A DNA stretch of 57,443 nucleotides, from positions 1 through 57,443 of the forward strand of contig JAULBX010025719.1 of NCBI GenBank assembly GCA_032358255.1. The letters are read 5' to 3'. Positions 31,170 through 46,637 of the stretch are shown here, one piece after another (positions within the stretch are counted from its first letter, which is position 1; each line of letters starts with the position of its first letter). A model generated the notes under the pieces. The model worked only from the letters and a program-made list of their open reading frames with translations. It was not told the DNA's origin and did not search any database. The DNA is from Heterotrichella gracilis. Taxonomy: Eukaryota > Sar > Xanthophyceae > Tribonematales > Xanthonemataceae. A program made the position numbers and the translations under genes.

Positions 31170-31547
31170 TTATGAGCGTTTGCTTAAAAACAAATTAAAC
31201 TCTTTGCGGATGTCTGCAAAATTAGATTCAAAACTTTTCATCATGTCGCGCTCTTTGGTATGATCTTCAGCCTTTCTATGATCAGAAGCGACAGGGTTAC
31301 TGTTAATGTTCGCCATGATCACTTTTTCGTCCAATTTTATACTCCGTTTCATATCATCAATAAATTTCGTTTGAATGATGAATTGATTTTGAAAGTGCTC
31401 AATTTCTTTTCTCACCTCAAGACCCGAGTTTTTGCTGCTGATATCTTCAAGTCGCTTTTGCATGATTGTCATTTCGTCAACATAAAAATTCAGGTTCTTT
31501 AACCATTCGGTGTGTTCGCTGTGTTGATCATAAAGATTCGTCTTCAT
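31170..31547 (-). CDS. Hypothetical coiled-coil protein at the head of the stress island
   Basis: 125 residues, mostly helical and charged, with no signal peptide or membrane segment. Heptad-like stretches include EMTIMQKRLEDISSK and RKEIEHFQNQFIIQTKFIDDMKRSI. I do not recognise a family. It is divergent from the DoxX gene and shares with it a control region bearing two Crp/Fnr-like boxes, so it should belong to the same regulon. A minus-strand GACATTTG at 31593-31586 is the likely -7 element. It is probably a small cytoplasmic stress protein; its partner is not known. Confidence 0.75.
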   Translation of the reverse strand: MKTNLYDQHSEHTEWLKNLNFYVDEMTIMQKRLEDISSKNSGLEVRKEIEHFQNQFIIQTKFIDDMKRSIKLDEKVIMANINSNPVASDHRKAEDHTKERDMMKSFESNFADIRKEFNLFLSKRS

Positions 31548-31585: not shown

Positions 31586-31682
31586 CAAATGTCGAGAAGA
31601 TCTTGCTCAGGTAAGTTGATAAATATCAGTTAAAAAACATGATTTTGATCAGATAAAAGAACAGTTTGTTGTTGGAAATTTG
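31586..31682. promoter_or_regulatory. Divergent promoter region with two Crp/Fnr-like boxes
   Basis: Box 1 TTGAT-AAAT-ATCAG (31616-31629) and box 2 ATGAT-TTTG-ATCAG (31639-31652) have centres 23 bp apart. A plus-strand -7 element GAAATTTG starts at 31675, 29.5 bp from the centre of box 2. A minus-strand GACATTTG starts at 31593, 29.5 bp from the centre of box 1. The layout is symmetrical and would put each near box at about -41.5, the class II activator position. Confidence 0.75.
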
Positions 31683-31690
31683 AACAAGGC

Positions 31691-32104
31691 ATGACAGAAT
31701 ATCAATTACATATGGCGGAGTTATTTTTGCGGATTTTTGCCGGGGTGCTTTTTCTATTTCAGGGCTACGACAAATTATTTCGCATCAAAATAAGCGGTGT
31801 TGTGGATGCCTTTCGCAGTGAAGCGGCCATTTATCAAGTCCCCCGATGGCTTTTATCCTTGTTGGCCTACTACACCAGTTTGACTGAATTTATTGGCGGA
31901 GCATTGCTTTTAGTCGGATTATTCAGTGATATTGCTTTAGTTTTACTTATCATAGACTTAATATTGGTTTCAATTGCTTTTTCATTTATTGAGCCTATGT
32001 GGGATACCAAACATGTGTTTCCCCGGTTTATTGCTTTGATCGCACTTCTTCTCTTACAATCAGGCAACAATCCTTACTCTTTAGATCAGCTTTTTAATAA
32101 ATAG
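31691..32104 (+). CDS. DoxX family membrane protein
   Basis: 137-residue inner membrane protein with four predicted helices. The family blocks are LFLRIFAGVLFLFQGYDKLF, then YYTSLTEFIGGALLLVGL (about residues 55-75), then a last pair ending FIALIALLLLQSG. DoxX proteins are linked with quinone or thiosulfate chemistry and with oxidative stress, but the family is poorly defined. It is preceded by the twin Crp/Fnr-like boxes and followed after 20 bases by the TerB-like gene, so the two form an operon. Confidence 0.85.
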   Translation: MTEYQLHMAELFLRIFAGVLFLFQGYDKLFRIKISGVVDAFRSEAAIYQVPRWLLSLLAYYTSLTEFIGGALLLVGLFSDIALVLLIIDLILVSIAFSFIEPMWDTKHVFPRFIALIALLLLQSGNNPYSLDQLFNK

Positions 32105-32124
32105 TTTAGTAACATAAAATTCGC

Positions 32125-32520
32125 ATGAAAAACATCAAACAATATTACAAAGAGCTTGGAAAACTGGTTTATGCTGTTGCTATTGCCGATGGTATTGTTC
32201 AAATTGAAGAACGTGAAAAACTACATCAGTTTGTTTTAAAAGAACTGGCAAGCAACGAAAAAACGTACGATTCATCGGGCATGAATCAGGCTTTTTATGT
32301 TGACTTTGAATTTGATGAGAGTGAACGAAACCGAATTAACCTAAATGGAACGATCTTAAAATTTTCGGAGTTCATTCGGGAAAATTTTGAACCACAGGAT
32401 AAAGAGCTGATCCAACGTTCAGTAAAACTCTTAGAAGTAGTCGCAAAGGCTTATCCTAAAAACAAAGAAAAGAACATCATTGAACAATTTATAAATAAAA
32501 CAAGGTCTATTATTCAATAA
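32125..32520 (+). CDS. TerB-like protein
   Basis: 131 residues, all helical, cytoplasmic. The segment LVYAVAIADGIVQIEEREKL (about residues 13-32) matches the acidic helix of TerB/tellurite resistance-type domains, where Asp and Glu residues can bind metal. The match is to the first half of the domain; the second half is weak. It follows DoxX by 20 bases. A stress or membrane-associated signalling role is inferred from the family. Confidence 0.65.
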   Translation: MKNIKQYYKELGKLVYAVAIADGIVQIEEREKLHQFVLKELASNEKTYDSSGMNQAFYVDFEFDESERNRINLNGTILKFSEFIRENFEPQDKELIQRSVKLLEVVAKAYPKNKEKNIIEQFINKTRSIIQ

Positions 32521-32583
32521 TTCACCTTTAAAAACAATACGACAATTAAAAAAAATATTCAGGTAAATCCTGCCATTAAGCAT

Positions 32584-32964
32584 ATGATTGCATTTACAAT
32601 TACAAGTGCCGATAATCTGGAGCTCATTAAAAATGAATTCACACTTGCTTTTCCATTTTTAAAACTTGAGTTTTTTAAACACAAACACAAGGTTATGGCG
32701 GCAAGTCCGAAAAATGACTTATTCGTTCGTCCTCTATCATTAACTGATTTACCTAAAAAATACCAAAACGGATTTATTCATGTAACAGAAGAAATGCTTG
32801 TTTCAGACTTGGAAAAATCATTCGAAGAACAATTCGGACTTTCGGCACAAGTATTCAGAAAGTCAGGAAGAAGTTGGCTGGAAACCACCAAAACAGATGA
32901 TTGGACGCTCAAACATCAAAATAAAGAAGGCAATGAATTAAGTCTTTTTATCAGGGCCTGGTAA
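32584..32964 (+). CDS. Conserved hypothetical, paralogue of the protein at 36386
   Basis: 126 residues. It shares with the 36386 product the blocks AFPFLKLEFF near the start and GLSAQVFRKSGRSWLETT with W-T-L-K near the end. No signal peptide or membrane segment, and no family I can name. It may be a small globular protein with a mixed alpha/beta fold. It is the third gene of the DoxX-TerB unit (63 bases downstream) and converges on the response regulator gene. Two copies inside one stress island suggest a role in that response. Confidence 0.7.
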   Translation: MIAFTITSADNLELIKNEFTLAFPFLKLEFFKHKHKVMAASPKNDLFVRPLSLTDLPKKYQNGFIHVTEEMLVSDLEKSFEEQFGLSAQVFRKSGRSWLETTKTDDWTLKHQNKEGNELSLFIRAW

Positions 32965-33016
32965 GCGCCTCTTTCAGATAAAAAATCAATAAGCTTCTTT
33001 ACCTATCGGTTTCTCA

Positions 33017-34075
33017 TTACGCTTTTAATTTCACTAATTTATCGTGGTTGATGATAGTAATATTACTGCCTTTGATCTCCACCAGTTTTTCTTCTTTAAA
33101 ATCACTTAATGTTCGAATTAAGGACTCTGTAGCAGTTCCAACAATATTTGCCAGGTCTTCCCGCGAAATGGAGATACTGAAATTATTTTCCTTTGAGGTA
33201 TCAAATCTGCTTTGTAATAGCAGTAAGGCTTCTGCTACGCGCTTACGCACCGAACTATATGCCAAGTTCACCAACTGCTTTTCTTTATCGAGAATATTAT
33301 CTGTTAACATTTTTGTAAAAACCTTCATCACATTCATATTACTGTGCATGAGTGAAAAAAAGTCTTCCTTAGGGATCAAACAAATTTCTGAATCTTCCAA
33401 GGCCTCTGCTGTTTCTGAATAAGGCTGATCTTCCATTAAAACGGTGTAACCAAAAAAATCACCTTCTTTATATAATGCCGTGATCAATTCTTTTCCATAC
33501 TCGTGCGATTTATAGGTTTTCACTTTTCCTTTTGCCATAAAAAACAAATAGTTTGGACTGTTTCCCTCGCTGAAAATGATCTCCTTCTTTTTAAAAGCCT
33601 TTACACGTCGGTTAGATGAAAGTTTTTTAAGATCCTCCAGTTTACTCACCTCATCAAAAAATTTATTAAGTCCATCCACATTTTTTGAAAATTCAGCTTT
33701 TAAAATATCGTGCTTTTTAAGCCGACTTTCCACAGCTTTTAATAATTCAAGATCATCAAACGGTTTGGTGATGTAATCATCAGCACCCATTTCCATTCCT
33801 TTTCTAAAATCGGGTCTTTCACTTTTTGCTGTTAAAAAGATAAATGGAATACTGGCCGTATCGGCACTTTTGTTGAGTAAATGAATAACGCCGTAACCAT
33901 CTAAAACCGGCATCATTATATCGCAAATAATCAGATCGGGCATCATTTTTTGTGCCTTTTCAACACCTTCTTTTCCGTTCTCCGCTTGAATGACCTTATA
34001 ACTGGCCAGTTCAAGAATTTCTGCTGTATTCTCCCGCACATCGGCATTATCTTCAATAAGTAGTATGGTTTTCAT
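33017..34075 (-). CDS. Response regulator fused to Crp/Fnr-type regulator
   Basis: 352 residues. A receiver domain (about 1-120) has the acidic pair E8/D9, phospho-acceptor D52 in ICDIMMP and the lysine in LTAKSERP. It is followed by a cyclic-nucleotide-binding-like domain (about 150-260, KEIIFSEGNSPNYLFFMAKG) and a Crp/Fnr winged helix (about 290-345). The recognition helix contains E317 and R321, spaced as in Crp and Fnr, where these residues read the TGA half-site. No cysteine cluster for an iron-sulfur centre is seen. Paired with the histidine kinase 29 bases upstream; probable regulator of the nearby TGA-N6-TCA boxes, including its own promoter. Confidence 0.88.
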   Translation of the reverse strand: MKTILLIEDNADVRENTAEILELASYKVIQAENGKEGVEKAQKMMPDLIICDIMMPVLDGYGVIHLLNKSADTASIPFIFLTAKSERPDFRKGMEMGADDYITKPFDDLELLKAVESRLKKHDILKAEFSKNVDGLNKFFDEVSKLEDLKKLSSNRRVKAFKKKEIIFSEGNSPNYLFFMAKGKVKTYKSHEYGKELITALYKEGDFFGYTVLMEDQPYSETAEALEDSEICLIPKEDFFSLMHSNMNVMKVFTKMLTDNILDKEKQLVNLAYSSVRKRVAEALLLLQSRFDTSKENNFSISISREDLANIVGTATESLIRTLSDFKEEKLVEIKGSNITIINHDKLVKLKA

Positions 34076-34104
34076 AGTTGCAAATAATTAGTTTGACTTA
34101 TATT

Positions 34105-35328
34105 CTATTCTATTGGTAAGGTTCTTTTTTCATTTGGCAAGGTGAGAAAAAAAGTTGTTCCCACCCCTACTTCACTTTCAAATTCTATCTTTCCATTCAT
34201 AGCCTCCAGATACTTAGATACAATGTTCAATCCTAAACCGGTTCCTTGCACGTTTGTAACATTAGAAGCCCTGAAAAAACGTTGAAACAAATGTTCTTGC
34301 TCTTCTTTAGGAATACCAAGGCCTTGATCGGAGATCTGAATTTTTATTTCATTCTCAGTGACATTCGTAGATATTGAAATTGTTTTATTCTCAGCTGAAA
34401 ATTTGATGGCGTTAGAAATCAAATTAAGGAGAATATTTCGTATCATTTGAATATCTAAATTAACCTCTGATGAGCCGCTATGTGTGTAGAGTAATTTTTG
34501 GTCCTTCTTAAGGATACCATTGATCTCACTAAGAATTTCGTTCACCAAACCCTGGAGATTAAATAGCTCCTTGCGCATAAAAACTTTACCCTCTTCTAAT
34601 TTTTCAGCCGACAAAAAATCGTTTAGGATCAAGGTCATGTTTGTGACGGCAGATTTAATGCGGTGCACATGTTTATCTATTTTTTCATCTCCTTCATTGT
34701 ATTTATTAACCAGTGAAATGGAAGATAAAATGGTACTTAAGGGTGTCCGGAATTCATGAGAGGCCATGGTAACAAAACGCGATTTCATATCATTGAGTTC
34801 TTTTTCTTTTGATAAGGCCACGCTTAATTGTTCCTTTGAATTTTCCAGTTCTATTAAAGCTTCGTGAAGCACTTTGGTGCGTTCATCTACTTTTTTTTCC
34901 AGTTCCTGATTGAGCTTTAAAACATTTTTCTCATGTTGTTTGCGTTCTGTGATGTCGATAATAAACGCAATCACAAACATTTCTTCAGCCTGTTTATAAT
35001 AAGATAAACTAATTTCAACAGGAAATTCAGAATTATCTTTTCTTTTAGCACAAAGATCCATGTTTTTACCCATTGAACGGGCATGAGGGTGTTTCATGTA
35101 ACCCTCTCTGAGTTTAGAATGGTCGGCGACATGTTTTGTTGGGATGAGTTCCTCAATTCTTACTCCTAACAATTCTTGTTTGGCATAACCAAACACTTTT
35201 TCGGCGCTCGGGTTGGCGCGAACTATCACACCTTTTTGATCACAAATAATTATACCTTCTGTGGCATGTTCAAACAAGGCATTTAGACTTTCCATCTGAA
35301 ATTTATCTTCTGTGTCTAAACTAATCAT
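34105..35328 (-). CDS. Soluble PAS-domain histidine kinase
   Basis: 407 residues without membrane segments. A PAS domain (about 14-130) has NALFEHATEGIIICD and the PAC end IDITERK. A coiled coil (about 130-185) follows. The HisKA domain has phospho-acceptor H191 in MASHEFRTPL. The HATPase domain has N-box NLISNAIKFS and G-boxes ISDQGLGIP and GTGLGLNIV. It probably phosphorylates the receiver of the protein encoded 29 bases downstream. Being cytosolic, it should sense an internal signal such as redox state or oxygen through the PAS pocket; the ligand is not evident. Its promoter faces the usp promoter. Confidence 0.92.
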   Translation of the reverse strand: MISLDTEDKFQMESLNALFEHATEGIIICDQKGVIVRANPSAEKVFGYAKQELLGVRIEELIPTKHVADHSKLREGYMKHPHARSMGKNMDLCAKRKDNSEFPVEISLSYYKQAEEMFVIAFIIDITERKQHEKNVLKLNQELEKKVDERTKVLHEALIELENSKEQLSVALSKEKELNDMKSRFVTMASHEFRTPLSTILSSISLVNKYNEGDEKIDKHVHRIKSAVTNMTLILNDFLSAEKLEEGKVFMRKELFNLQGLVNEILSEINGILKKDQKLLYTHSGSSEVNLDIQMIRNILLNLISNAIKFSAENKTISISTNVTENEIKIQISDQGLGIPKEEQEHLFQRFFRASNVTNVQGTGLGLNIVSKYLEAMNGKIEFESEVGVGTTFFLTLPNEKRTLPIE

Positions 35329-35382
35329 TTTGCCAATATTATCCTAAGTGTTTCCAAGAATCTGATGTAAGAGTCTGATTAC

Positions 35383-35523
35383 CAAAGATGATCGACAACG
35401 TCTAGTAAATAAATGACTTTGGTCAGTTTATTAAATGACAAAAATCATGTTCTGTTTTTGACAATTATCAGTGAGAAATCTGAGAATCATCAGAAATTTG
35501 ACTGAACAATGGAAATACATTTG
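35383..35523. promoter_or_regulatory. Divergent promoter region with four Crp/Fnr-like boxes
   Basis: Boxes ATGAC-TTTG-GTCAG (35413-35426), ATGAC-AAAA-ATCAT (35435-35448), TTGAC-AATT-ATCAG (35458-35471) and CTGAG-AATC-ATCAG (35480-35493) have centres 22, 23 and 22 bp apart. The usp -7 element TACATTTG starts at 35516, 29.5 bp from the centre of box 4. On the minus strand CATCTTTG (35390-35383) is 29.5 bp from the centre of box 1 and would serve the histidine kinase operon. Confidence 0.75.
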
Positions 35524-35541
35524 TAACAAACCTATCACCTG

Positions 35542-36369
35542 ATGAAAACACTCTTAGTTGCCACCGATTATTCCAAAACGGCTTTAAACGCAGTAAATTA
35601 TGCTGCAGATCTGGCAGTTCGAACGAAATCCAAATTAGTTCTTTTCCATGTTTATCATGCGCCCATTATTATGTCTGAAGTCCCTGTGGTAATACCAAGT
35701 CTAGACGAAATGGAGAAAGAGAGTTTAAAAGAACTCACAAAAATTGAAAAAAAATTAAAAGTAAAATTTGGCATCAAACTAAAGATTGAAAAAGTTGTCA
35801 AGTGTGGGCTGGCTGTGGATGAAATTATTGACGAGGCAAAAAAATTACATGCCGACCTGGTGGTGATGGGCATGCAGGGAGTGGGAATAATTAGTGAAAG
35901 GCTGGCAGGAAGTATCACAACATCACTGATGCAAAAAGCAGAATTCCCGGTATTATGCATCAATGAGAAGGTGAAATATAAATCCTTAAAACGAATAGCA
36001 CTCGCTTGTGATTACATCGAACTTAAAAATAATAAAATATTAGAACCTTTAATTCAATTAGCTCAATTATTCAAATCGGAAGTCTACATTCTCAATGTTT
36101 TAAATCAAGCTGACACAAGACCTACTGTAAGCGAAGCTGTAGCAGGTATTAAACTCGAAAAAGCGGTGGAAGCAATTAATCATAGTTTTCATTATATAAA
36201 AAATAAGGACATCATAGAAGGGATCAATGAGTTTGCAGTAGGCAATAAAATAGATCTTATTGTCATGATTCCGCGAAAACATTCTGTTTTAAAAAATATT
36301 TTAAAAGAACCAACTACCAAACGCATGGCTTTTCACACACACATACCCTTATTAACACTACATGAATAA
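35542..36369 (+). CDS. Tandem universal stress protein
   Basis: 275 residues made of two UspA domains (about 1-145 and 150-275). The first domain begins KTLLVATDYSKTALNAVNYA and has the ATP-binding loop GMQGVGIISERLAGSITTS (G-x2-G-x9-G-S). The second is degenerate and lacks this loop. Such proteins help cells persist under energy or oxygen limitation. It is controlled by four Crp/Fnr-like boxes upstream. Its stop codon overlaps the first possible start of the next gene, indicating an operon. Confidence 0.9.
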   Translation: MKTLLVATDYSKTALNAVNYAADLAVRTKSKLVLFHVYHAPIIMSEVPVVIPSLDEMEKESLKELTKIEKKLKVKFGIKLKIEKVVKCGLAVDEIIDEAKKLHADLVVMGMQGVGIISERLAGSITTSLMQKAEFPVLCINEKVKYKSLKRIALACDYIELKNNKILEPLIQLAQLFKSEVYILNVLNQADTRPTVSEAVAGIKLEKAVEAINHSFHYIKNKDIIEGINEFAVGNKIDLIVMIPRKHSVLKNILKEPTTKRMAFHTHIPLLTLHE

Positions 36370-36385
36370 ACTAATTGATATTCCT

Positions 36386-36760
36386 ATGAAAATTACGATT
36401 AATGATAAACGAAAAATTTTTGCTATTCAGGAAGAATTTAACATTGCATTTCCGTTTCTAAGAATTGAATTTTTTTCTAAACCGCATAAGCCGGGAGCCG
36501 GTTCTTCGAAAAAATTTATTAAGCATTCAAGTAAAACCTTGGGAGAATGTCGTACCATTCATAATGCCGGCAGCATTACCATTTCCGAAAATATGACCGT
36601 AACCGAATTGGAACAACGATTTGGGGATGTATACGGATTGGGAGTTCAGGTTTTCCGAAAATCAGGCAATGTGTGGTTAGAAACCACTGTTACCGATGGC
36701 TGGACATTGAAGGAGCAAAATGATCAGGGAGAATCCTTAAGTAAAGTGATCATTAATTGA
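36386..36760 (+). CDS. Conserved hypothetical, paralogue of the protein at 32584
   Basis: 124 residues from the ATG at 36386 (MKITINDKRK), the start that aligns with the paralogue. An earlier ATG at 36362 overlaps the usp gene. Shared blocks are FNIAFPFLRIEFF and GLGVQVFRKSGNVWLETTVTD. It is cytoplasmic, has no known domain, and is co-transcribed with usp. Its pairing with stress genes at both sites makes a role in the same response likely; the biochemical function is unknown. Confidence 0.7.
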   Translation: MKITINDKRKIFAIQEEFNIAFPFLRIEFFSKPHKPGAGSSKKFIKHSSKTLGECRTIHNAGSITISENMTVTELEQRFGDVYGLGVQVFRKSGNVWLETTVTDGWTLKEQNDQGESLSKVIIN

Positions 36761-36998
36761 GTAACTTAACTCTATCCATTTCTAATTGCTAATTATCATT
36801 CTTAATTACGTTTTTTGAAATTAATTTAGGAACAGAATTAATTCATGTTGATTTAAAATACACTAAAAAAAAGACTCGTTTAAAAAGAAAAAGAAATCAA
36901 ACAAAGCAAAGTCAATAACCCGATTTCGTAAGGCTTTTTCTTCAAGCAAAAAGAATTTATATTTTGCTTCAAAACATAGATTTATAGCGGAGATTGGT

Positions 36999-37006
36999 TA
37001 TATTTG
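36999..37006 (+). promoter_or_regulatory. Possible -7 element before the mla-type operon
   Basis: TATATTTG fits the TAnnTTTG consensus 57 bases before the permease start. No TTG stands at the right distance and no TGA-N6-TCA box is present. The rest of the 303-base gap (36761-37063) shows no gene. Confidence 0.35.
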
Positions 37007-37063
37007 TTTAGAAGCCTTTAAGAAGTATCTCATTTAATTTGAAAAGCTTTATCACTTCACCTT

Positions 37064-37831
37064 ATGAAACACAGTGCACTTTATTCTTTTCTTAATGAAG
37101 CCGGAGATATTGCACGCTTCACCGGAAGGTTTTTTAAGGAGACATTTAAACCCGGATTTGAATTCAAGGAATTTCTAAAACAGTGTTTTGACATTGGTTA
37201 TAGATCTTTGCCCTTGGTGGTTGTTACCGCTTTTATTATTGGTTTGGTGATCACTATACAATCCAGACCTACCCTCGTGGAAGTTGGCGCTGAAGCCTGG
37301 TTACCGGCCATGGTCTCGGTTTCGCTGGTTCGAGAAATTTCACCGGTCATAACCGCTTTGATCTGTGCGGGAAAAATAGGCTCGGGTATTGGAGCTGAAT
37401 TAGGCAGTATGAAAGTTACTGAGCAAATAGACGCGATGGAAGTGTCGGGAACAAATCCTTACAAGTATTTGGTTGCTACCCGTGTATTAGCAACCACTTT
37501 TATGATCCCTATCCTGGCGGTTCTTGCAGATGCTGTTTCACTTTATGGAGGTTATCTGGGCACAAATATCAAGGGCGTTGTCAGCTGGGAACTATTCTGG
37601 AGTCAGGTGTTTGACAGTTTAGCATTTAGTGATGTCATTCCATCTTTGCTCAAAACATTTTTGTTTGGGTTTGCCATTGGAATTATAGGTTGTTACAAGG
37701 GTTATAATTCCAGCAAAGGAACTGAAGGCGTTGGACAATCGGCCAATTCTGCGGTTGTTATTTCCTCTTTATTGGTATTTATCATTGATCTTATAGCTGT
37801 TCAACTTACCGACGTACTAAATCTCACGTGA
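37064..37831 (+). CDS. MlaE/YrbE-type ABC permease
   Basis: 255-residue inner membrane permease of MCE transport systems, which move phospholipids or other lipids between membranes. Five or six hydrophobic helices are visible. The family signature VREISPVITALICAGKIGSG with GAELGSMKVTEQIDAM (about residues 88-125) is the coupling helix that meets the ATPase. It overlaps the ATPase gene by four bases, so the MlaE-F-D genes form an operon. No MlaB STAS gene or MlaC carrier gene is adjacent. Confidence 0.93.
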   Translation: MKHSALYSFLNEAGDIARFTGRFFKETFKPGFEFKEFLKQCFDIGYRSLPLVVVTAFIIGLVITIQSRPTLVEVGAEAWLPAMVSVSLVREISPVITALICAGKIGSGIGAELGSMKVTEQIDAMEVSGTNPYKYLVATRVLATTFMIPILAVLADAVSLYGGYLGTNIKGVVSWELFWSQVFDSLAFSDVIPSLLKTFLFGFAIGIIGCYKGYNSSKGTEGVGQSANSAVVISSLLVFIIDLIAVQLTDVLNLT

Positions 37832-38607
37832 TAAAAGAACAACATAGCCCTTTAAGCCAACTTCCTATAGAAACGGAAGCAGAAGTGGTTATTCGTTTAA
37901 AAAACGTGTCAAAATCGTTTGGTGAAAATCAGGTGCTTAAAGATCTAAATTTTGAACTTAAGAGAGGCGAAAACATCGTTGTATTAGGTAAGTCAGGTTC
38001 CGGTAAATCGGTTCTCATCAAATGCATTATTGGATTGGTGAAACCGGATACGGGCAGCATTGAAGTATTAAAACAAGAGATCACAAAAATTCGCACCGAA
38101 GAGTTAGATATCCTGAGAGCGAAAGTTGGATTTTTATTTCAAAGTAACGCGCTGTATGATTCCATGAGTGTGAGAGAAAATCTTGAATTTCCATTACGCA
38201 GACACCGCAAAGGATTAGACCGATCACAGATCAATCACTTGGTAGAAGAGGCTTTGAGTAATGTTGGTCTGATTCACACCATTGACATGATGCCGGCAGA
38301 GCTATCAGGCGGCATGAAAAAGCGGGTGGCTTTGGCGCGAACCCTGATACTTAAGCCCGAGATCATCTTATACGATGAACCCACCACCGGCTTAGATCCC
38401 ATAACGGGAAAAGAAATTTCAATGCTCATGAAAGATCTTGCTGATAAATTTAACACATCTACCATCATCATTTCACACGATTTAAATTGTGTGAAAATTG
38501 TGGCTGAAAAAATCATCATGTTAATTGATGGAAGATGTTATGCACAAGGCACCTTTGAGGAGTTAGAACAGTCAACAGATAAAAAAATTAAAGACTTTTT
38601 CATATAG
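37828..38607 (+). CDS. MlaF-type ABC ATPase
   Basis: Cytoplasmic ATPase of 259 residues that powers the MCE lipid transporter. Walker A GKSGSGKS (about residues 53-60), signature LSGGMKKRVALARTL, Walker B IILYDEPTTGLDP and the switch histidine in IIISHDLNC are all intact. GGMKKR is typical of the Mla/Mkl group. Four-base overlap with the permease and one base to the MCE gene indicate tight coupling. Confidence 0.95.
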   Translation: MIKEQHSPLSQLPIETEAEVVIRLKNVSKSFGENQVLKDLNFELKRGENIVVLGKSGSGKSVLIKCIIGLVKPDTGSIEVLKQEITKIRTEELDILRAKVGFLFQSNALYDSMSVRENLEFPLRRHRKGLDRSQINHLVEEALSNVGLIHTIDMMPAELSGGMKKRVALARTLILKPEIILYDEPTTGLDPITGKEISMLMKDLADKFNTSTIIISHDLNCVKIVAEKIIMLIDGRCYAQGTFEELEQSTDKKIKDFFI

Positions 38608-38608
38608 T

Positions 38609-39559
38609 ATGGCAAACGAAGGCTCAAGAAATATTCGATTAGGGATTTTTGTTTTAAGCGGCACCATTTTATTGATCGCTGCTTTGTATCTGATGGGAAA
38701 TAAGCAGAATTTATTTGGCTCAACTTTCAGGATCAGTGCAGAGTTTCATAATGTGGACGGATTAATGCCGGGAAACAATGTACGTTTTGCGGGAATCGAT
38801 GTAGGCACGGTGGAGTCGGTAAAAATAGTGAACGACACTTCCGTAAGAGTAGTGATGGTGCTTGAAAAGAAAATACAGCCCTATATTAAAAAAAATTCAT
38901 TGGCAGGTGTTGGCACCGATGGCTTAATGGGTAACAAGCTTGTCAACATCAATTCAGTGAAACAAAGAGGCGAACCGGTAGTGGAAGGAGATATTATTCA
39001 AACCATTCGTCCTATTGAAATGGATGAAATGGTTCGAACATTAAATTCAACCAACGATAATATCAATGTTATTTCTGCCAATCTCCGTAACATCACTGAT
39101 AAAATAAACAGTAAAAATAGTCTATGGAGTGTTTTGTTGGATACAGTAGTGGCTGAGAATGTTAAATCGGCGGTAGTGAATTTAAAACTCATGAGTAATC
39201 AAGGTGTCATGGTCACCGGAGATCTGAGCCAATTAACCCGCGACATCAAATCGGGAAAAGGCAGCATTGGCGCGCTCATCACAGACACCATCTTATCCTA
39301 CAAAATCAATCAAACCGTGGTTAATTTAAATATGATCAGTGATACAGTGGCAATCATGAGTGGGAATCTTTCTTCCATTGTTCACAATTTAAAATCAGGA
39401 AAAGGCTCCATGGGCATATTATTAAATGACACCACCTTAATTCATGACTTAAATAAGAGTATTAAGAGCATCGATAAAGGGGCTAACAGTTTTGATGAAA
39501 ACATGGAAGCTCTGCATTATTCATGGCCCTTTAAAAAATATTATAAAAAGAAAAAATAA
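38609..39559 (+). CDS. MCE-domain (MlaD-type) substrate-binding protein
   Basis: 316 residues. One N-terminal membrane anchor (about 12-30) is followed by an MCE domain (about 40-120, FHNVDGLMPGNNVRFAGIDV). The C-terminal helical part (about 150-300) has two related repeats around LKSGKGSMGILLNDT and IKSGKGSIGALITDT. Such proteins form hexameric rings that pass lipids across the periplasm. It is last in the mla-type operon. The repeats in the tail are also seen in other Bacteroidota MCE proteins. Confidence 0.92.
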   Translation: MANEGSRNIRLGIFVLSGTILLIAALYLMGNKQNLFGSTFRISAEFHNVDGLMPGNNVRFAGIDVGTVESVKIVNDTSVRVVMVLEKKIQPYIKKNSLAGVGTDGLMGNKLVNINSVKQRGEPVVEGDIIQTIRPIEMDEMVRTLNSTNDNINVISANLRNITDKINSKNSLWSVLLDTVVAENVKSAVVNLKLMSNQGVMVTGDLSQLTRDIKSGKGSIGALITDTILSYKINQTVVNLNMISDTVAIMSGNLSSIVHNLKSGKGSMGILLNDTTLIHDLNKSIKSIDKGANSFDENMEALHYSWPFKKYYKKKK

Positions 39560-39569
39560 GCATTGTCCG

Positions 39570-39606
39570 AACGCTGATCATTGATCAGTTGGCTTGGGCT
39601 TGCGTT
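39570..39606. repeat. Inverted repeats after the MCE gene
   Basis: A perfect 15-bp palindrome CTGATCATTGATCAG (39574-39588) sits inside AACGC (39570-39574) and GCGTT (39602-39606), followed by TTTT. It may be a terminator of the mla-type operon. Its N5 spacing differs from the Crp/Fnr-like boxes. Confidence 0.5.
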
Positions 39607-39728
39607 TTTAACTGATGTTGTTCGGTTGCCATTTGACATTTCACTTTTATCTAAAATTTCAAGCAATGTTTTGTATGTATTCTAAAAACCTTATTCACTC
39701 AAACAAAAAAAGGAACTAATTCTGCTTT

Positions 39729-42236
39729 ATGATCGCATACAAACATACCGGCTTAAACCCCGAAGAGGTAATGGCATCCAGGGCAAAGCATGGTATGAAT
39801 GCGCTGAACACAAAACAAGAAAGCCGGTTTTTTACCTTACTGAAAGAAATCGTATTAGAACCCCTTTTTATTATTTTAGTTTGTGCCGCCATCATTTATT
39901 TTCTTTTAGACCAACAAAATGAAGGATTTATAATGCTGGCAGCCATTGTGTTTGTTTCCGGTATTTCATTTTATCAGGAGAACAAAAGTCAAAACGCGGT
40001 AGATAGTCTTAAAAAACTAACTGATCCAAGTGCGAAAGTGATCAGAAATAGTTTGCTCACAGATATTCCGAACACAGAAGTCGTGGTGAATGATATTTTA
40101 GTGGTGGAAGACGGAAATATTATTTCGGCAGATGCAGAGGTTTTAGAGGCGCACGATTTTACCGTCAACGAAAGTACGCTCACCGGCGAATCGTTACCGG
40201 TAAACAAAAACACAGACCAAGGAAACAATCAACTCTTACAAGGCACTATGGTCAACACCGGATCTTGTGTTGCCAGAGTGACTGCTGTTGGTAATCAAAC
40301 TCGTTTTGGAAAAATAGGAGAATCACTTGTATCCATCAAGGTAACAAAAACACCCTTACAATTGCAAATCAAAACATTTGTAAAGTCATTAGTCATTGTT
40401 GGCGCCATTGCCTTTTTAATTGTTTTAGGCATTAACTGGTTTATCACAAAAAGTTTTTTGAATGGTTTATTGCAAGGTTTAACACTGGCCATGTCTATTC
40501 TGCCGGAAGAAATTCCGGTTGCCTTTAGCACCTTTATGGCTCTGGGCGCTTATCAATTGCATAAACAAAAGGTCATTGCCATGAGTCCTCATACAGTAGA
40601 AACTTTAGGTGCGGCTACGGTGATCTGCACTGATAAAACGGGTACAATTACCGAGAATAAAATGGAATTATCTGCTATTTATGATTTTCAAAAAAAGGAA
40701 ATTTATGATTATACCAGCAGTAAAATAGTTGCGAATGAGGTGTTGGAGTATGCCATGTGGTCATCTGAGACAGAACCTTTTGATGCGATGGAAAAGTCGA
40801 TTCATACTGCGTATACGGATGTTAGTAAAGCGGATCTTCGAAACCAATTTAAAATGATTCATGAGTATCCATTGGCAGGAAAACCTCCCATGATGACACA
40901 TGTATTTGAGAATGACGATAAAAAACGCATCATTGCTGTAAAAGGCAGTGTAGAAGCTGTTTTGAAATGCGTATCGCTTAGTGATGCAGAAAAAGAATCC
41001 ATCGTTAAACAATCGAAGGTCTTTGCTTCAAAAGGATTTCGTGTTTTGGCAGTAGGTCGCTCTTTCTATGATTCTAGTACTTTTCCACTTAGCCAGGATG
41101 AATTTGAATTTGAATTTTTAGGTTTGATCGCCTTTTATGATCCTCCTAAAAAAAATATGATTGAGATCCTGAAACGATTTTATGAGGCCGGAATAGATGT
41201 AAAAATGATCACCGGCGATTATCCTGAAACAGCGATGGCCATTGCAAAACAAATCAAATTAAAAAACAGTGATTCTGTGCTAAACGGACAAGAAGTTGCT
41301 GAAATGCCCATGGAGCTTTTGCGTGAGAAGGTAAAACAGACCACCTTGTTTGCCAGGATGTTTCCGGATGCCAAATTAAAAATCATTGAAGCCTTAAAGG
41401 CCAATGGAGAAGTAGTGGCTATGACAGGCGATGGCGTTAATGATGGTCCGGCTTTAAAAGCAGCGCACATTGGCATTGCCATGGGTTTAAGAGGAAGTGA
41501 AATTGCAAAAAAATCGGCAGCTCTTATTTTAGTGGATGATGATCTTTCGCATATGCCTGAGGCGGTGGCCATGGGAAGAAGAATTTATGAAAATTTAAAA
41601 AAAGCTATTCAGTATATCATATCTATTCATATACCTATCATATTGATTGTTACCTTGCCTTTGGTTTTATTTTGGAAATACACCAACCTGTTTACACCGG
41701 TGCATGTGATCTTTTTAGAACTCATCATGGGTCCTATCTGTTCAATTGTATTTGAAAGAGAACCTATTGAAAAAAATTCCATGTTAAAGCCTCCTCGTCA
41801 ACTCAGTGTCACCTTTTTTTCTTTTCGGGAATTATTTATAAGCATCATTCAAGGTCTTTTCATAACACTTGTTTGTTTAAGTATGGGGTTTTATTACATG
41901 CAAGCAAGCAGTAGTATTGAGGAAGTGCGAACCATTATTTACACCACCCTTATTTTCAGTAATTTGTTTCTTGCCCTGGTAAACCGGTCATTCGTGTACT
42001 CGGTTCTTGAAAGTTTTAAAAACAAAAACAGATTGATGCCTTTATTTTTAGGGATCTCCTTGTTGGTTCTTTTTCTCTCTATTTATGAACCACATATGAG
42101 AGGCATTTTTGAATTTTCAATCATCTCATTTAAAACCCTTTTCACCTCTCTGCTATTCGCCTTTATAGGTGTAAGCTGGATTGAAGTATATAAGTTTTTT
42201 ATCAGAAAAAAAACAGCTCCTCCAACTATAGTATGA
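39729..42236 (+). CDS. Cation-translocating P-type ATPase (calcium pump-like, P2)
   Basis: 835-residue inner membrane pump. The actuator motif is LTGES (151-155), the phosphorylated aspartate is D302 in CTDKTGTITEN, the hinge is TGDGVNDGPALKAAHIGIAMG, and the fourth helix carries ILPEEIP. There is no N-terminal metal-binding domain, and helices 5-10 at the C-terminus place it in the P2 (calcium/sodium-type) group. The transported ion cannot be stated with certainty. The stop codon overlaps the phosphorylase gene by four bases, tying an ion pump to nucleotide breakdown in one operon. Confidence 0.9.
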   Translation: MIAYKHTGLNPEEVMASRAKHGMNALNTKQESRFFTLLKEIVLEPLFIILVCAAIIYFLLDQQNEGFIMLAAIVFVSGISFYQENKSQNAVDSLKKLTDPSAKVIRNSLLTDIPNTEVVVNDILVVEDGNIISADAEVLEAHDFTVNESTLTGESLPVNKNTDQGNNQLLQGTMVNTGSCVARVTAVGNQTRFGKIGESLVSIKVTKTPLQLQIKTFVKSLVIVGAIAFLIVLGINWFITKSFLNGLLQGLTLAMSILPEEIPVAFSTFMALGAYQLHKQKVIAMSPHTVETLGAATVICTDKTGTITENKMELSAIYDFQKKEIYDYTSSKIVANEVLEYAMWSSETEPFDAMEKSIHTAYTDVSKADLRNQFKMIHEYPLAGKPPMMTHVFENDDKKRIIAVKGSVEAVLKCVSLSDAEKESIVKQSKVFASKGFRVLAVGRSFYDSSTFPLSQDEFEFEFLGLIAFYDPPKKNMIEILKRFYEAGIDVKMITGDYPETAMAIAKQIKLKNSDSVLNGQEVAEMPMELLREKVKQTTLFARMFPDAKLKIIEALKANGEVVAMTGDGVNDGPALKAAHIGIAMGLRGSEIAKKSAALILVDDDLSHMPEAVAMGRRIYENLKKAIQYIISIHIPIILIVTLPLVLFWKYTNLFTPVHVIFLELIMGPICSIVFEREPIEKNSMLKPPRQLSVTFFSFRELFISIIQGLFITLVCLSMGFYYMQASSSIEEVRTIIYTTLIFSNLFLALVNRSFVYSVLESFKNKNRLMPLFLGISLLVLFLSIYEPHMRGIFEFSIISFKTLFTSLLFAFIGVSWIEVYKFFIRKKTAPPTIV

Positions 42237-43738
42237 AAGAACAATTGATCAATACCTTAAAATTAAAACGTCTTCATATTGACACTCAAATTGAACATGT
42301 GGTTTACATGGCTAAAAATTGTTCTGTTTACAAATCAGAAGGCTTTGAATCATTGAGCCGGGTTCAGGTGAATTTAAACAACAAATCTCTTATTGCCACC
42401 TTAAATATTATTGACAATGGTATGTTGCATTTAGGAGAAGCCGGCTTATCAGAAAACGCCTGGCTTTTATTAGAGGCGCAAGAAGGAGATGAAGTTAGTT
42501 TCAGTCATCCCAAACCGGTTGAATCAATGGCTTATGTGCGTGCTAAGATCTATGGGAAAATGTTAAGTAAAGAAAATTTTACCGAGATCTTAACAGATAT
42601 TGTACAAGGCCGTTATTCAAACATAGAGATCTCCGCTTTTATTACGGCCTGCGCCGGAGACAATTTAAGTATTGAGGAGATTACGGCTTTGTCGAAGGCC
42701 ATGGTAGATACAGGTCAGCATTTACATTGGAATAAAACGGTTGTGGTAGATAAACACTGTGTTGGTGGCTTGCCTGGAAACAGAACCACACCCATTGTTG
42801 TTTCTATTGTTGCTGCAGCAGGCCTCACTATCCCTAAAACATCTTCACGCGCCATCACTTCTCCGGCGGGAACCGCAGATACTATGGAAACCATCACTCG
42901 AGTAGATCTGGATCTAGATGAAATTAAACGAGTGGTTGATCAGGAAAATGGCTGTTTGGCCTGGGGTGGATCCGTGAAATTAAGTCCGGCGGATGACATT
43001 GTGATTCGGGTGGAACGGGCCTTAGACATTGATAGCGAAGGACAGATGATCGCTTCCGTTCTATCTAAAAAAAGTGCAGCCGGTTCAACGCATGTGGTCA
43101 TTGATATTCCTGTTGGAAAAACTGCAAAAGTAAGAACGCAAGAAAGTGCCGAAAAATTAAAATACTATTTCAAGGTCATTGGCGCCTCCATGAACATGAA
43201 AATAAAAGTGTTGATCACCGATGGTTCTCAACCGGTAGGAAGAGGAATTGGTCCGGCCTTGGAAGCCATGGATGTATTAAGTGTATTACGCAATGAACAG
43301 GAGGCTCCGGCAGATCTGAGATTACGATCATTGGAAATCGCCGCAGAAGTTTTAGAATTATCAGAACTTGTGACTGTAGGTGAAGGCATGAAATTAGCGC
43401 AAGAACTTTTACAGAGTGGCAAAGCTTATTCAAAATTTGAAGCCATTTGTAAAGCACAAGGTGCCTTTAAGGCTCCTCAATATGCTCCAAACAGAATTGG
43501 TATTGAAGCGGAGAGATCTGGAATGATTGTTGAAATTGATAACCGCAAACTCGCCAAATTAGCTAAACTGGCCGGCGCGCCAAAAGAACTGTCTGCAGGT
43601 GTTCTCATGCAATGTTGTCTCCATAAAAAAGTCAAAAAAGGGGACATTCTTTTTTATATTTATGCTGCAGAGATCGGTGAATTAAATTATGCTTTAGATT
43701 ATTTAACCTCACAAACAAACATCATACGAATTGAATAA
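42233..43738 (+). CDS. AMP/thymidine phosphorylase family enzyme
   Basis: 501 residues, longer than DeoA (about 440) and equal to the archaeal AMP phosphorylase class. The extra N-terminal domain (about 1-85) is characteristic of that class. The catalytic part has VDKHCVGGLPGNRTTPI, PKTSSRAITSPAGTADTM and ITRVDL, with the phosphate-binding and glycine-rich loops intact. It should split a nucleoside monophosphate or nucleoside with phosphate; family knowledge points to NMP giving base plus ribose 1,5-bisphosphate. It overlaps the ATPase gene by four bases and is one base from the prs paralogue. Substrate is not proven. Confidence 0.82.
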   Translation: MKEQLINTLKLKRLHIDTQIEHVVYMAKNCSVYKSEGFESLSRVQVNLNNKSLIATLNIIDNGMLHLGEAGLSENAWLLLEAQEGDEVSFSHPKPVESMAYVRAKIYGKMLSKENFTEILTDIVQGRYSNIEISAFITACAGDNLSIEEITALSKAMVDTGQHLHWNKTVVVDKHCVGGLPGNRTTPIVVSIVAAAGLTIPKTSSRAITSPAGTADTMETITRVDLDLDEIKRVVDQENGCLAWGGSVKLSPADDIVIRVERALDIDSEGQMIASVLSKKSAAGSTHVVIDIPVGKTAKVRTQESAEKLKYYFKVIGASMNMKIKVLITDGSQPVGRGIGPALEAMDVLSVLRNEQEAPADLRLRSLEIAAEVLELSELVTVGEGMKLAQELLQSGKAYSKFEAICKAQGAFKAPQYAPNRIGIEAERSGMIVEIDNRKLAKLAKLAGAPKELSAGVLMQCCLHKKVKKGDILFYIYAAEIGELNYALDYLTSQTNIIRIE

Positions 43739-43739
43739 G

Positions 43740-44624
43740 ATGAAATTACTTTTTTTCGCTTTTCCGGGAAACGAAACTTTAAGTGCTGAACTTGTGAAAA
43801 AACAAGAAGGAGAAACTGGTATTTTTGAACTTAGAAATTTTCCGGATGGTGAAAGCTATCTTAGAATTCTATCGACGGTAGAAAATAGAAGAACCGTTTT
43901 GGTTTGCTCACTCCATCAACCCGATGAAAAAATTCTGCGCTTATATTTCTTTGCAAAAACATTAAAAAGTCTGGGTGCCCGCGAGGTAATTTTAATCACC
44001 CCTTATCTTGCTTATATGCGACAGGACAAACTTTTTCATCCCGGAGAAGGAATCAGTTCACATTATGTAGCCGAATTTCTATCCGGTTTTTTTGATGGAA
44101 TTATTACCCTTGATCCCCATTTACATCGCATTAAAAAATTGAGTGACATCTATTCTATCAAAACAAAAGTGGTGCATGCGGCGGGACTCATTGCGCAGTG
44201 GATCAAACACCATGTACCAAATGCTTTGTTGATCGGTCCAGATTCAGAGAGTGAACAATGGGTCTCTAAAGTGGCTCAGGAGGCAGGTGCGGCATTTACC
44301 ATTCTTGAAAAACACCGAAGTGGTGATACTCAGGTTGAAGTATCGATGCCTCATGTAGAAACCTATAAAGACCACAGCCCTGTTTTAATAGATGATATCA
44401 TTTCAACCGGCAGAACCATGATTGAAACCATTATTCATTTAAAACAATTAAAGATGAAAGCACCGGTATGCATTGTTATTCATGCTGTATTTTCAAATAA
44501 CGCTTATGCTGAACTGAAATCAGCCGGTCCACTAAAAATTGTAAGTTGCAACAGCATTTCACATGAAAGTAATGGCATTGATGTGAGTGAGTTGCTTCAG
44601 GTGCCTGGACAAGCTGACTGGTAA
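43740..44624 (+). CDS. Divergent ribose-phosphate pyrophosphokinase paralogue
   Basis: 294 residues from ATG at 43740; TTG at 43731 overlaps the previous stop and is less likely. PRPP synthetase features are ITLDPHLHRIK, the pyrophosphate region GPDSESEQW, and the PRPP loop VLIDDIISTGRTM. It differs from the housekeeping Prs at 26643 in the flexible loop (LEKHRSGDTQVEV) and is shorter. Next to the phosphorylase it may recycle the pentose phosphate of nucleotides into PRPP. The exact substrate is uncertain. Confidence 0.85.
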   Translation: MKLLFFAFPGNETLSAELVKKQEGETGIFELRNFPDGESYLRILSTVENRRTVLVCSLHQPDEKILRLYFFAKTLKSLGAREVILITPYLAYMRQDKLFHPGEGISSHYVAEFLSGFFDGIITLDPHLHRIKKLSDIYSIKTKVVHAAGLIAQWIKHHVPNALLIGPDSESEQWVSKVAQEAGAAFTILEKHRSGDTQVEVSMPHVETYKDHSPVLIDDIISTGRTMIETIIHLKQLKMKAPVCIVIHAVFSNNAYAELKSAGPLKIVSCNSISHESNGIDVSELLQVPGQADW

Positions 44625-44626
44625 AA

Positions 44627-44692
44627 GTGACAATTATCACTTTTTCTTCTGAGGTAGCTCATTCCTTTTTTCAATTAAGTTTGATACATTTA
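44627..44692 (+). promoter_or_regulatory. Promoter with two Crp/Fnr-like boxes
   Basis: GTGAC-AATT-ATCAC (44627-44640) and CTGAG-GTAG-CTCAT (44649-44662) have centres 22 bp apart. The -7 element TACATTTA starts at 44685, 29.5 bp from the centre of the near box. The first box is also a short hairpin followed by T, so it may double as terminator of the prs paralogue. Confidence 0.68.
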
Positions 44693-44717: not shown

Positions 44718-44828
44718 ATGAAAACCGATACCATCAGTTCTAAAATTATAGAAAGCATAAATGCCGCCTGGAGTGAAATTGATGAATTGCGTGTGCAATT
44801 GGCATTAGGAAAAGCTGAAGCAAGTTAA
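44718..44828 (+). CDS. Small protein (36 aa) related to the next coiled-coil protein
   Basis: ATG at 44718 encodes a 36-residue helical peptide ending DELRVQLALGKAEAS. The block VQLALGKAE recurs in the protein encoded after the assembly gap (ESLKVQLALGKAETK), with different codons, so the likeness is at the protein level and not an assembly duplicate. It has its own promoter with two Crp/Fnr-like boxes. It is likely a small stress-island protein. Function unknown. Confidence 0.55.
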   Translation: MKTDTISSKIIESINAAWSEIDELRVQLALGKAEAS

Positions 44829-44890
44829 TTTCCTAGATATTATCTTCTGAACTTATTCATGCTATATATTCTGATGATTCATACCAATGG

Positions 44891-44900
44891 NNNNNNNNNN
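44891..44900. other. Assembly gap (10 N)
   Basis: Ten N bases join two contigs. The gap falls in the 5' part of a coiled-coil gene, whose true start and length upstream are therefore unknown. Confidence 1.
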
Positions 44901-45360
44901 TTTGCTTCATGAGGTATCGCAGGAAATAGCTGAGTTAAAGGAGGACAAAGATGTTCTGATCTTATTAAACACACTTGAATCACTTAAAGTTCAACTGGCC
45001 CTCGGTAAAGCTGAAACCAAACAGTTATTTGAAGAGCAGTATGAAAAGATAAAATTGTCTTTACATGAATTTGAGACAGAATTCAGGAAAAACAAACAGG
45101 TGGAAGAGAACTATGCCAAACTACATTTAGAAATTGAAAAATTTAAGATCAAACTTGAGTTACTGCATTTACATTATAAACTCCTTAAAGTGAAGTCAGG
45201 TTTTCAGTTTGAGGACAAAAAGAAGGAGATGTTTTCAAAACTAGCGGCCATCAAAGACAAAATGCTGGCAAAGGAAAAAGAAGGTAAGCAAAAATGGAAT
45301 CATTTTCAGGAAGAACTCGGTGAAGCCTATGAACATCTGAGATCTGCATTTAGAGACTAA
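44901..45360 (+). CDS. Coiled-coil protein, 5' end in the assembly gap
   Basis: At least 152 residues, almost all heptad-like helix (EEQYEKIKLSLHEFETEF, NYAKLHLEIEKFKIKLELL). No membrane segment or signal peptide is visible. The reading frame enters from the N gap, so the ATG at 44887 just before it cannot be trusted. The LKVQLALGKAE block links it to the small protein at 44718. It is 21 bases upstream of usp2. It may act as a structural or scaffolding stress protein; no family is recognised. Confidence 0.65.
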
Positions 45361-45381
45361 ATCGATTAATACATAAATCAT

Positions 45382-46239
45382 ATGAATTTAATTTCAACCA
45401 AACTTCTGGTCACCACCGATTTCTCGGCCAATTCAAAAGCGGGAATCCGATTTGCCTTGCAATTACAAGCACAAACCAACTGTGAAATAGTATTTTATCA
45501 TGTGGTTGAGATCATGAAACCTACCTCATGGAATGATGAGCACTATAAAAAGTTTGCGAAACAAAAAATTGCGGAGTTCACTGAAGAATTGATTGACTTT
45601 GTGACAAAGGTGAGAGGAGAAGGATTTTTAGCAAAGGGAAAAATTGGGTTTAAAGTTGAAATTGGGACCAGTATTGATGAGCTTGCTATTAGTGCTGCAA
45701 AAAAGAGCAAAGCCACTTACATTTGTATGTCTACCAAGGGTGCAGGAAGAATTAAAAAAATATTTGGAACCAATGCTTCGTCTATGGTCAACAACTCCCC
45801 TATTCCGGTGATTGTTGTGCCAAGCACCTATAAACCTAAGCCTCTTTCTCAACTGTTTTATGCCTCTGATTTTGCTATGTTAGGTGCAGAACTCAAGCAA
45901 GTACAAAAATTTGCAGAGAACACAAAAGCCCGTATCAATGTGTTTCATTACGACTATTTACTGCACGTGCCGGAGAACAAAGCCAAACTCGAAAAATTAG
46001 CTGGAAAATATGCAGGAAAAGAATTGGTATTCAATTTCAAAAGACAAGAGATCGAGATCCCCTTATCGGCGCATCTTAAAAAGGATATCAAACAAATAAA
46101 GCCTGACCTGGTCATTTTATTTACCAAACAAAACCGTAAATGGTTCGACCGACTTTTTCCTTCCAGTGAAGCACAAGAGATGGCCTTTAATACCACGATA
46201 CCCTTATTGGTTTTCAGAAAAAAAACAAATGCTTCATGA
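45382..46239 (+). CDS. Tandem universal stress protein 2
   Basis: 285 residues, two UspA domains. The first begins KLLVTTDFSANSKAGIRFA and has the ATP loop STKGAGRIKKIFGTNASSM (G-x2-G-x9-N-A-S, altered last glycine). The second lacks the loop. It is a divergent paralogue of the Usp at 35542. Its stop overlaps the thioredoxin gene start by four bases. Likely part of the operon that starts at 44718. Confidence 0.88.
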   Translation: MNLISTKLLVTTDFSANSKAGIRFALQLQAQTNCEIVFYHVVEIMKPTSWNDEHYKKFAKQKIAEFTEELIDFVTKVRGEGFLAKGKIGFKVEIGTSIDELAISAAKKSKATYICMSTKGAGRIKKIFGTNASSMVNNSPIPVIVVPSTYKPKPLSQLFYASDFAMLGAELKQVQKFAENTKARINVFHYDYLLHVPENKAKLEKLAGKYAGKELVFNFKRQEIEIPLSAHLKKDIKQIKPDLVILFTKQNRKWFDRLFPSSEAQEMAFNTTIPLLVFRKKTNAS

Positions 46240-46637
46240 AACAGATATTTTTCATAACTGTTCTTATTTTATTTTCGGGGTACTGCCATTCGCAAAATAC
46301 TCCCGGCGATAGTATTGCGCGTTATCCTATCAACATGACAGTAGATGAATTTAACAAACGGACATCTATAAAAGACAAATTGGTCTTGGTCAATTTTGAA
46401 GCAGATTGGTGTATCATGTGTAAAAAACAAAAACCAATACTCAATGAAATTATTGCAGAAAAAAAGAATCTGGAGGTGATCATCATTGATATGGAACAAA
46501 ACCCGCTGATTGCTGAGTATTTTAATGTTGATGGATTGCCAATTAACCTCATTTATAAAAACGGAACATTAGCATGGGATCGGGCAGGTTTCAGAACAAA
46601 AAATGAACTTCTTAAACAGATCAATGTATTTGAATAG
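46236..46637 (+). CDS. Exported thioredoxin-like protein
   Basis: 133 residues. Signal peptide about 1-19 (ending GYCHSQ), then a thioredoxin fold with EADWCIMCKKQKP, active site CIMC, and the cis-proline loop DGLPINLIY. The DsbD C-terminal domain and related thiol reductases have a similar WC-x2-C-K context. It should act in the periplasm. It is translationally coupled to usp2. Confidence 0.85.
   Translation: MKQIFFITVLILFSGYCHSQNTPGDSIARYPINMTVDEFNKRTSIKDKLVLVNFEADWCIMCKKQKPILNEIIAEKKNLEVIIIDMEQNPLIAEYFNVDGLPINLIYKNGTLAWDRAGFRTKNELLKQINVFE

Follow-up and report, generated by a model that had tools for sequence, protein, structure and literature searches.

Tandem TGA-N6-TCA boxes at a fixed distance from the -7 element mark candidate activator-dependent promoters in a Bacteroidia-like gene island

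Contig JAULBX010025719.1 of the Heterotrichella gracilis assembly (C321:1-57443, the whole stretch of 57,443 nucleotides being referred to as the window; 37% GC) carries five promoters of one layout, in which two TGA-N6-TCA boxes stand in tandem and the nearer box lies at a fixed distance from a -7-like element. That this promoter grammar is real is stated with high confidence. Taken as a whole, the five sites are likely to be activator-dependent promoters of a low-oxygen regulon driven by a response regulator of the REC-CRP type and a FixL-like kinase, both encoded in the same gene island. The layout, of which no description was found in the literature searched, looks like a control switch common to a large bacterial class. 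The closest named relatives of the response regulator are Bacteroidia, and because such a Bacteroidia-like bacterial stretch sits in a eukaryote-project assembly of 68.5 Mb in 903 contigs, the window probably derives from a symbiont, a food organism or a contaminant.

The first-pass annotation of the window had listed eight boxes that fit TGA-N6-TCA or are one base off; all eight exist, and none is off, each being an exact match. They lie in the three regions it had named, with centres at 31622.5 and 31645.5, at 35419.5, 35441.5, 35464.5 and 35486.5, and at 44633.5 and 44655.5, giving spacings of 23 bp, of 22, 23 and 22 bp, and of 22 bp, respectively. The five -7-like elements begin at 31675(+), 35516(+), 44685(+), 31593(-) and 35390(-), and the claimed distance of exactly 29.5 bp between near-box centre and NAnnTTT(G/A) element holds for 5/5. 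Each near box has a far box 22-23 bp upstream; the twin at 31617-31651 is common to two divergent promoters, and the four-box row at 35414-35492 serves both the kinase operon and the operon of a universal stress protein (Usp). A scan of the window that allowed up to two box mismatches in total returned these five promoters, all with 0 mismatches, and no sixth in 57 kb. Dinucleotide shuffling of the window, repeated 200 times, gave a mean of 0.245 near-box/-7 pairs (maximum 2), where 5 were observed, and a mean of 0.02 tandem pairs spaced by 22-23 bp (maximum 1), where 5 were again observed. The window contains 33 copies of TGA-N6-TCA, of which 25 fall beyond the three promoter regions, so that a lone box carries little meaning and the information lies in pairing and distance.

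In E. coli, -41.5 is the class II activator position. The accessible part of a start-site map for Flavobacterium psychrophilum places TAnnTTTG at -12 to -5 (PMC9723704), which would put the near boxes at -41.5, over the -35/-33 region, and the far boxes at -63.5 or -64.5; on this footing the class II position proposed for the five promoters is upheld. With the first base of the -7 element set as -12, the predicted starts precede the start codons by 4, 14, 21, 50 and 34 nt (the ATG of the third promoter is at 44718). The DoxX gene of the window (predicted transcription start to ATG, 31687-31691) and several DoxX and P-type ATPase genes elsewhere begin 0-15 nt behind the predicted transcription start, and near-leaderless messages may therefore be common in the twin-box regulon.

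Relatives of the island were collected with an alignment of 20 regulators as query; at least 594 stretches matched, and the best 80 loci were kept (58-85% identity; 1,378,212 bases; flanks of up to 10 kb a side). These loci span Cytophagales genera, Chitinophagaceae, Sphingobacteria, Flavobacteriales and unplaced Bacteroidetes, together with one metagenome-assembled genome titled Alphaproteobacteria (L056). The distance from box to NAnnTTTG has two peaks, at 29.5 bp (122) and 51.5 bp (97), the next offset being 52.5 bp (18), and each of six control box kinds gave 0-2 at 29.5 bp. Of the box pairs, 107 are spaced by 22 bp and 12 by 23 bp, all other spacings reaching at most 4. The 122 near-box promoters are found in 64/80 loci; an exact second box accompanies 86 of them at 22/23 bp, ten have a second box that departs by one base and lies at 21-23 bp, one has an exact box elsewhere and 25 have no second box. 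E. coli CRP/FNR class II promoters have the same activator centre at -41.5, a palindrome and a Glu-Arg recognition helix; they differ in that the phased second box is the rule here (96/122 with at most one mismatch) and in the sigma factor consensus.

The full 65-bp tandem pattern was also searched in 295 evenly drawn Bacteroidia genomes and gave 475 matches in 157 of them, whereas the reversed pattern gave 0 and a pattern with the -7 element moved 3 bp nearer gave 1. The earlier annotation had treated a genome scan as decisive, with chance recurrence counting against it; performed on relatives, the scan was strongly favourable. Its description of the regulon as 'local' has to be given up, the same grammar recurring across Bacteroidia. 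Full promoters occur at about 1 per 16 kb around regulator genes, compared with the 475 counted over all 295 genomes, each a few Mb in size; this physical linkage adds to the association by genome counts. Among 172 promoters from 128 sources, divergent promoters share one twin 14 times; divergent promoters with separate pairs fill five rows, which amount to three distinct loci because three of the rows are one Fluviicola locus. The highest count of any genome, 19 full twin-box promoters, was obtained for G228, where 10 of the 13 listed places are on contig C56. In a set of 116 unique exact promoters, where the letters of the pattern are fixed by selection and only the free positions are informative, the far box reads TGAY-N4-RTCA with an A-rich centre (A 0.47-0.61); the near box has an unconstrained centre and C, G or A before TCA. 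The near box is followed by T at a frequency of 0.74, the first base of the -7 element is T at 0.59, and no conserved TTG was seen between near box and -7 element in this set.

A Crp/Fnr-type response regulator had been reported in the island, as had a promoter (CATCTTTG) before its operon, and both are confirmed. The protein matches PF00027 and PF13545 above cut-off and has the arrangement of the CRP/FNR superfamily, a cNMP-binding fold followed by HTH_Crp with a Glu-Arg helix. In CRP/FNR proteins, the Glu and Arg of the recognition helix contact TGA; the corresponding E317 and R321, already singled out in the first-pass annotation, are invariant in 84/84 aligned regulators (that of the window among them), as are I320 and the phosphorylation residues D9, D52 and K104. 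Other regulator classes were considered for this protein and rejected. Response regulators of the FixJ/NarL type consist of REC and a LuxR-type HTH, and REC is joined here to cNMP-binding and HTH_Crp_2 domains instead. FixK is a solo CRP/FNR protein with neither REC nor an N-terminal cysteine cluster; the REC domain excludes the regulator from that class, though it may work in a FixK-like way. Iron-sulphur (Fe-S) FNR proteins have an N-terminal cysteine triad and a fourth cysteine; the sole cysteines of the regulator are C51 and C232, the latter shared by 18/84 aligned regulators.

The PAS domain of the adjacent kinase matches FixL (E 2.2e-12) and DosP (E 2.3e-11). The histidine that binds haem in these two proteins aligns to H70 of the window kinase, in the place of an F-helix proximal histidine; H70 lies within a predicted helix (64-79) and is kept in 56/57 kinases having the PAS stretch. 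The distal-side arginine of FixL, R220, is not kept: the window kinase has M90 at the aligned place, which is variable in relatives. Because this arginine is missing, haem in the kinase PAS is regarded as plausible but unproven.

Target genes were assigned for 153 unique promoters, including the four of the window with TTTG; 151 had an open reading frame (ORF) within 350 bp. The largest clusters were those represented by CcoNO (fused cbb3 oxidase; 24) and DoxX (18), followed by P-type ATPases (13, seven of them matching that of the window), Usp (13), a small protein without Pfam match (12), the kinase (12), a HemA-represented cluster (7), an unknown small protein (7), relatives of the ORF at 31170 (6) and an Hsp20-represented cluster (3). 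Smaller clusters and single targets include FixG, cytochrome c and hemerythrin/ScdA. Within the HemA-like cluster of seven, the gene at L046:11286-12566 stands directly behind its promoter, and the loci L046, L054, L068, L069, L071 and L073 belong to Pontibacter, Adhaeribacter and Rufibacter.

Oxygen as the signal is put forward with lower confidence than either the grammar or its reader. The same CRP/FNR-driven grammar might respond instead to carbon, redox or general stress, or to a ligand, cNMP or another, bound by the CNB domain, and several observations point in that direction: the regulator retains a cNMP-binding fold, Usp and thioredoxin belong to the general stress response, oxygen is not indicated by some of the single targets, and Crp/Fnr homologues of Flavobacteriales and Saprospiraceae are assigned to carbon-sensing MalR in the accessible part of one study (PMC8510549). 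A signal other than oxygen is nevertheless considered unlikely, given that the top target cluster is the cbb3 oxidase, that HemA and FixG are also targets, that the kinase PAS is nearest to FixL and DosP, and that F. psychrophilum at oxygen limitation, according to the portion of the source available, raises its cbb3 oxidase strongly and its haem-synthesis enzymes as well (PMC9723704).

Regarding the protein that reads the boxes, 143/295 genomes hold a relative of the response regulator (E 1e-60), and promoters were found in 114 of these 143 versus 43 of the 152 others. In 38 of these 43, the best match to the regulator lay in the Crp part, in a solo Crp/Fnr-like frame. Ten aligned proteins of this kind have an N-terminal CX2CX8C motif, with C38, C59 and C112 invariant in 10/10, and a recognition helix (TATET-IRLLSEFK) nearly identical to that of the regulator (TATESLIRTLSDFK). 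When the solo class was defined as E < 1e-66 plus ten short-frame matches picked by hand, promoters were present in 6/81 genomes with neither protein, 70/97 with the response regulator only, 37/71 with the solo protein only and 44/46 with both (on average 0.11, 1.90, 1.15 and 4.35 matches per genome); with the strict solo cut alone the counts were 7/90, 71/98, 36/62 and 43/45. The response regulator, proposed at the outset as the reader, is thus retained as a candidate reader but not as the sole one, the solo FNR-like protein being associated with the promoters too. In other Bacteroidia, these boxes are probably recognised by the solo protein, either by itself or jointly with the response regulator, and the N-terminal cysteine cluster of the solo proteins suggests that some homologues assigned to MalR may sense oxygen instead.

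For the bacterium of the window, the response regulator is taken as the box reader with fair confidence, and the activator in this organism is likely to be the REC-CRP protein of the island. More doubtful than a non-oxygen signal is the view that a solo Fe-S-type FNR reads the boxes and the island regulator merely shares the neighbourhood or acts elsewhere; it would agree with the cysteines and recognition helix of the solo proteins and with the promoters of solo-only genomes, but it is at odds with the 70/97 genomes that have promoters and the response regulator with no solo protein found (6/81 with neither), with the clustering of near-box promoters at response-regulator genes, and with a query of the window's assembly (solo FNR, E 1e-8) that matched only the window's own regulator, although this contig may be the only one of the bacterium. 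That the boxes are common words whose spacing is coincidental or simply reflects AT-rich intergenic DNA has a practically negligible probability: the abundance of TGA-N6-TCA in the window speaks for it, and the shuffles, the reversed and shifted patterns and the flat control boxes refute it.

Several points weigh against the reading of the five sites as low-oxygen promoters of the REC-CRP regulator and its kinase. The association counts are raw genome counts from which shared ancestry was not removed, and the solo cut-off was chosen after the list had been seen. The exact promoter is missing in 27/97 genomes with the response regulator only and present in 6/81 with neither protein. A change of residue 316 from T to K is accompanied by no clear change in the box flanks in the covariation comparison. 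Autoregulation is not general: with up to two mismatches allowed, a promoter lies within 400 bp of 14/72 kinase genes versus 70/876 other ORFs of the same regulator loci. The PAS stretch with the conserved histidine is missing in 16/73 kinases. Lastly, targets such as peptidyl-arginine deiminase, a beta-eliminating lyase, a secreted PKD/SprB protein and an Mrr/ATP-cone protein do not indicate oxygen.

Under the preferred reading, each composite promoter would consist of TGAY-N4-RTCA, a second TGAY-N4-RTCA 22-23 bp on, 23 bp of spacer and NAnnTTTG. Two CRP/FNR-family dimers would occupy neighbouring sites centred at -41.5 and at -63.5 (or -64.5), separated by roughly two turns of the helix; the dimer at the near box would replace the -33 element and contact RNA polymerase in the class II manner, and that at the far box would strengthen the complex. 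The adjacent FixL-like PAS kinase would switch the REC-CRP regulator, their operon itself having a twin-box promoter, and in other Bacteroidia a solo cysteine-bearing FNR-like protein would act on the same boxes, alone or alongside the response regulator. The output would be a programme of low-oxygen respiration and survival. A wider proposal, for which the odds are judged somewhat below even, is that of a class-wide low-oxygen regulon in Bacteroidia with a rigid 65-bp promoter and phased dimers acting together, in which the kinase and a REC-FNR fusion would collapse the three proteins FixL-FixJ-FixK into two, and an Fe-S FNR, where present, would share the promoters and grade mild versus severe shortage.

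The closest system known to us, and one that the present system would resemble in its working, is that of rhizobia (FixL-FixJ-FixK or hFixL-FxkR-FixK, with FnrN). In the part of the source available, the anaerobox before fixNOQP is where two routes meet, one running from a FixL-type kinase to FixK and the other that of the cysteine-bearing FnrN (PMC7888657). As far as that text goes, the two systems share a kinase route and a cysteine-bearing FNR route on one FNR-type box (rhizobial TTGAT-N4-ATCAA) before a cbb3 operon, and the clustering of regulator genes with targets; unlike here, the rhizobial response regulator turns on a separate FixK gene, whereas REC and the FNR-like DNA-binding part are fused in the present system, the boxes mostly occur in pairs spaced by 22-23 bp, and TAnnTTTG, the Bacteroidota form, serves as the -7 element. 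The low-oxygen-activated (lxa) locus of Burkholderia cenocepacia resembles the island in its universal stress proteins (six), its link to limited oxygen and the discussion of an Anr/FixK-like regulator (PMC6127331); it belongs to another phylum and has a different gene set, and twin-box grammar is not among the lxa features described in the accessible portion of that paper. The mycobacterial DosS/DosT-DosR dormancy regulon likewise places Usp-rich and cation-ATPase genes under a two-component system responding to low oxygen; the output domain of DosR is LuxR-type, unlike the CRP-type output here.

Little description of oxygen control was found in the literature for Bacteroidota, which form a major phylum in soil, water and gut. 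The 65-bp pattern would list candidate low-oxygen genes in many members of the phylum, including small proteins of unknown function. The twin-box promoters would also allow direct tests of how a two-component route and an FNR route converge on a single promoter, and of how class II activation works when the sigma factor recognises TAnnTTTG.

Table 1. Boxes, -7 elements and genes of the promoter island (positions in the window).
Feature	Positions	Strand	Remarks
125-aa protein	31170..31547	-	No Pfam match; first gene behind minus promoter; in cluster of 6 promoter targets (itself counted)
-7 element GACATTTG	31586..31593	-	29.5 bp from box 1; predicted start ~31581
Box 1 TGATAAATATCA	31617..31628	.	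Near box of minus promoter, far box of plus promoter
Box 2 TGATTTTGATCA	31640..31651	.	Near box of plus promoter, far box of minus promoter
-7 element GAAATTTG	31675..31682	+	29.5 bp from box 2; predicted start ~31687, DoxX-like ATG 4 nt on
DoxX-family protein	31691..32104	+	
131-aa protein	32125..32520	+	No Pfam match; 3' of DoxX
126-aa protein	32584..32964	+	No Pfam match; paralogue of 36362-36760
Response regulator	33017..34075	-	REC + cNMP-binding + HTH_Crp_2; candidate activator
Histidine kinase	34105..35328	-	PAS-HisKA-HATPase; no membrane domain among Pfam matches; PAS nearest FixL and DosP
-7 element CATCTTTG	35383..35390	-	Kinase-regulator operon; predicted start ~35378
Box 3 TGACTTTGGTCA	35414..35425	.	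Near box, kinase-regulator promoter
Box 4 TGACAAAAATCA	35436..35447	.	Far box, kinase-regulator promoter
Box 5 TGACAATTATCA	35459..35470	.	Far box, Usp promoter
Box 6 TGAGAATCATCA	35481..35492	.	Near box, Usp promoter
-7 element TACATTTG	35516..35523	+	29.5 bp from box 6; predicted start ~35528
Universal stress protein (Usp)	35542..36369	+	
132-aa protein	36362..36760	+	No Pfam match; relatives in 36/80 regulator loci
Mla-type transporter	37064..39559	+	Three genes: MlaE permease, ABC ATPase, MlaD
P-type cation ATPase	39729..42236	+	Best match calcium type, below cut-off
Thymidine/AMP phosphorylase family and ribose-phosphate pyrophosphokinase	42233..44624	+	
Box 7 TGACAATTATCA	44628..44639	.	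Far box
Box 8 TGAGGTAGCTCA	44650..44661	.	Near box
-7 element TACATTTA	44685..44692	+	Final base off consensus; 29.5 bp from box 8; predicted start ~44697
36-codon ORF, N gap, ORF to 45360, Usp, thioredoxin	44718..46637	+	Likely transcript of third plus promoter

The paralogues at 32584-32964 and 36362-36760 form one small-protein family, members of which stand directly behind 12 promoters; a confident alpha/beta model was obtained for the family, with no clear fold match. At the 10-N gap (44891-44900), the peptide motif VQLALGKAE(A/T) is repeated in the 36-codon ORF before the gap and in the ORF after it, and the repeat (within 44718-44910) is either a local duplication or an assembly fault.

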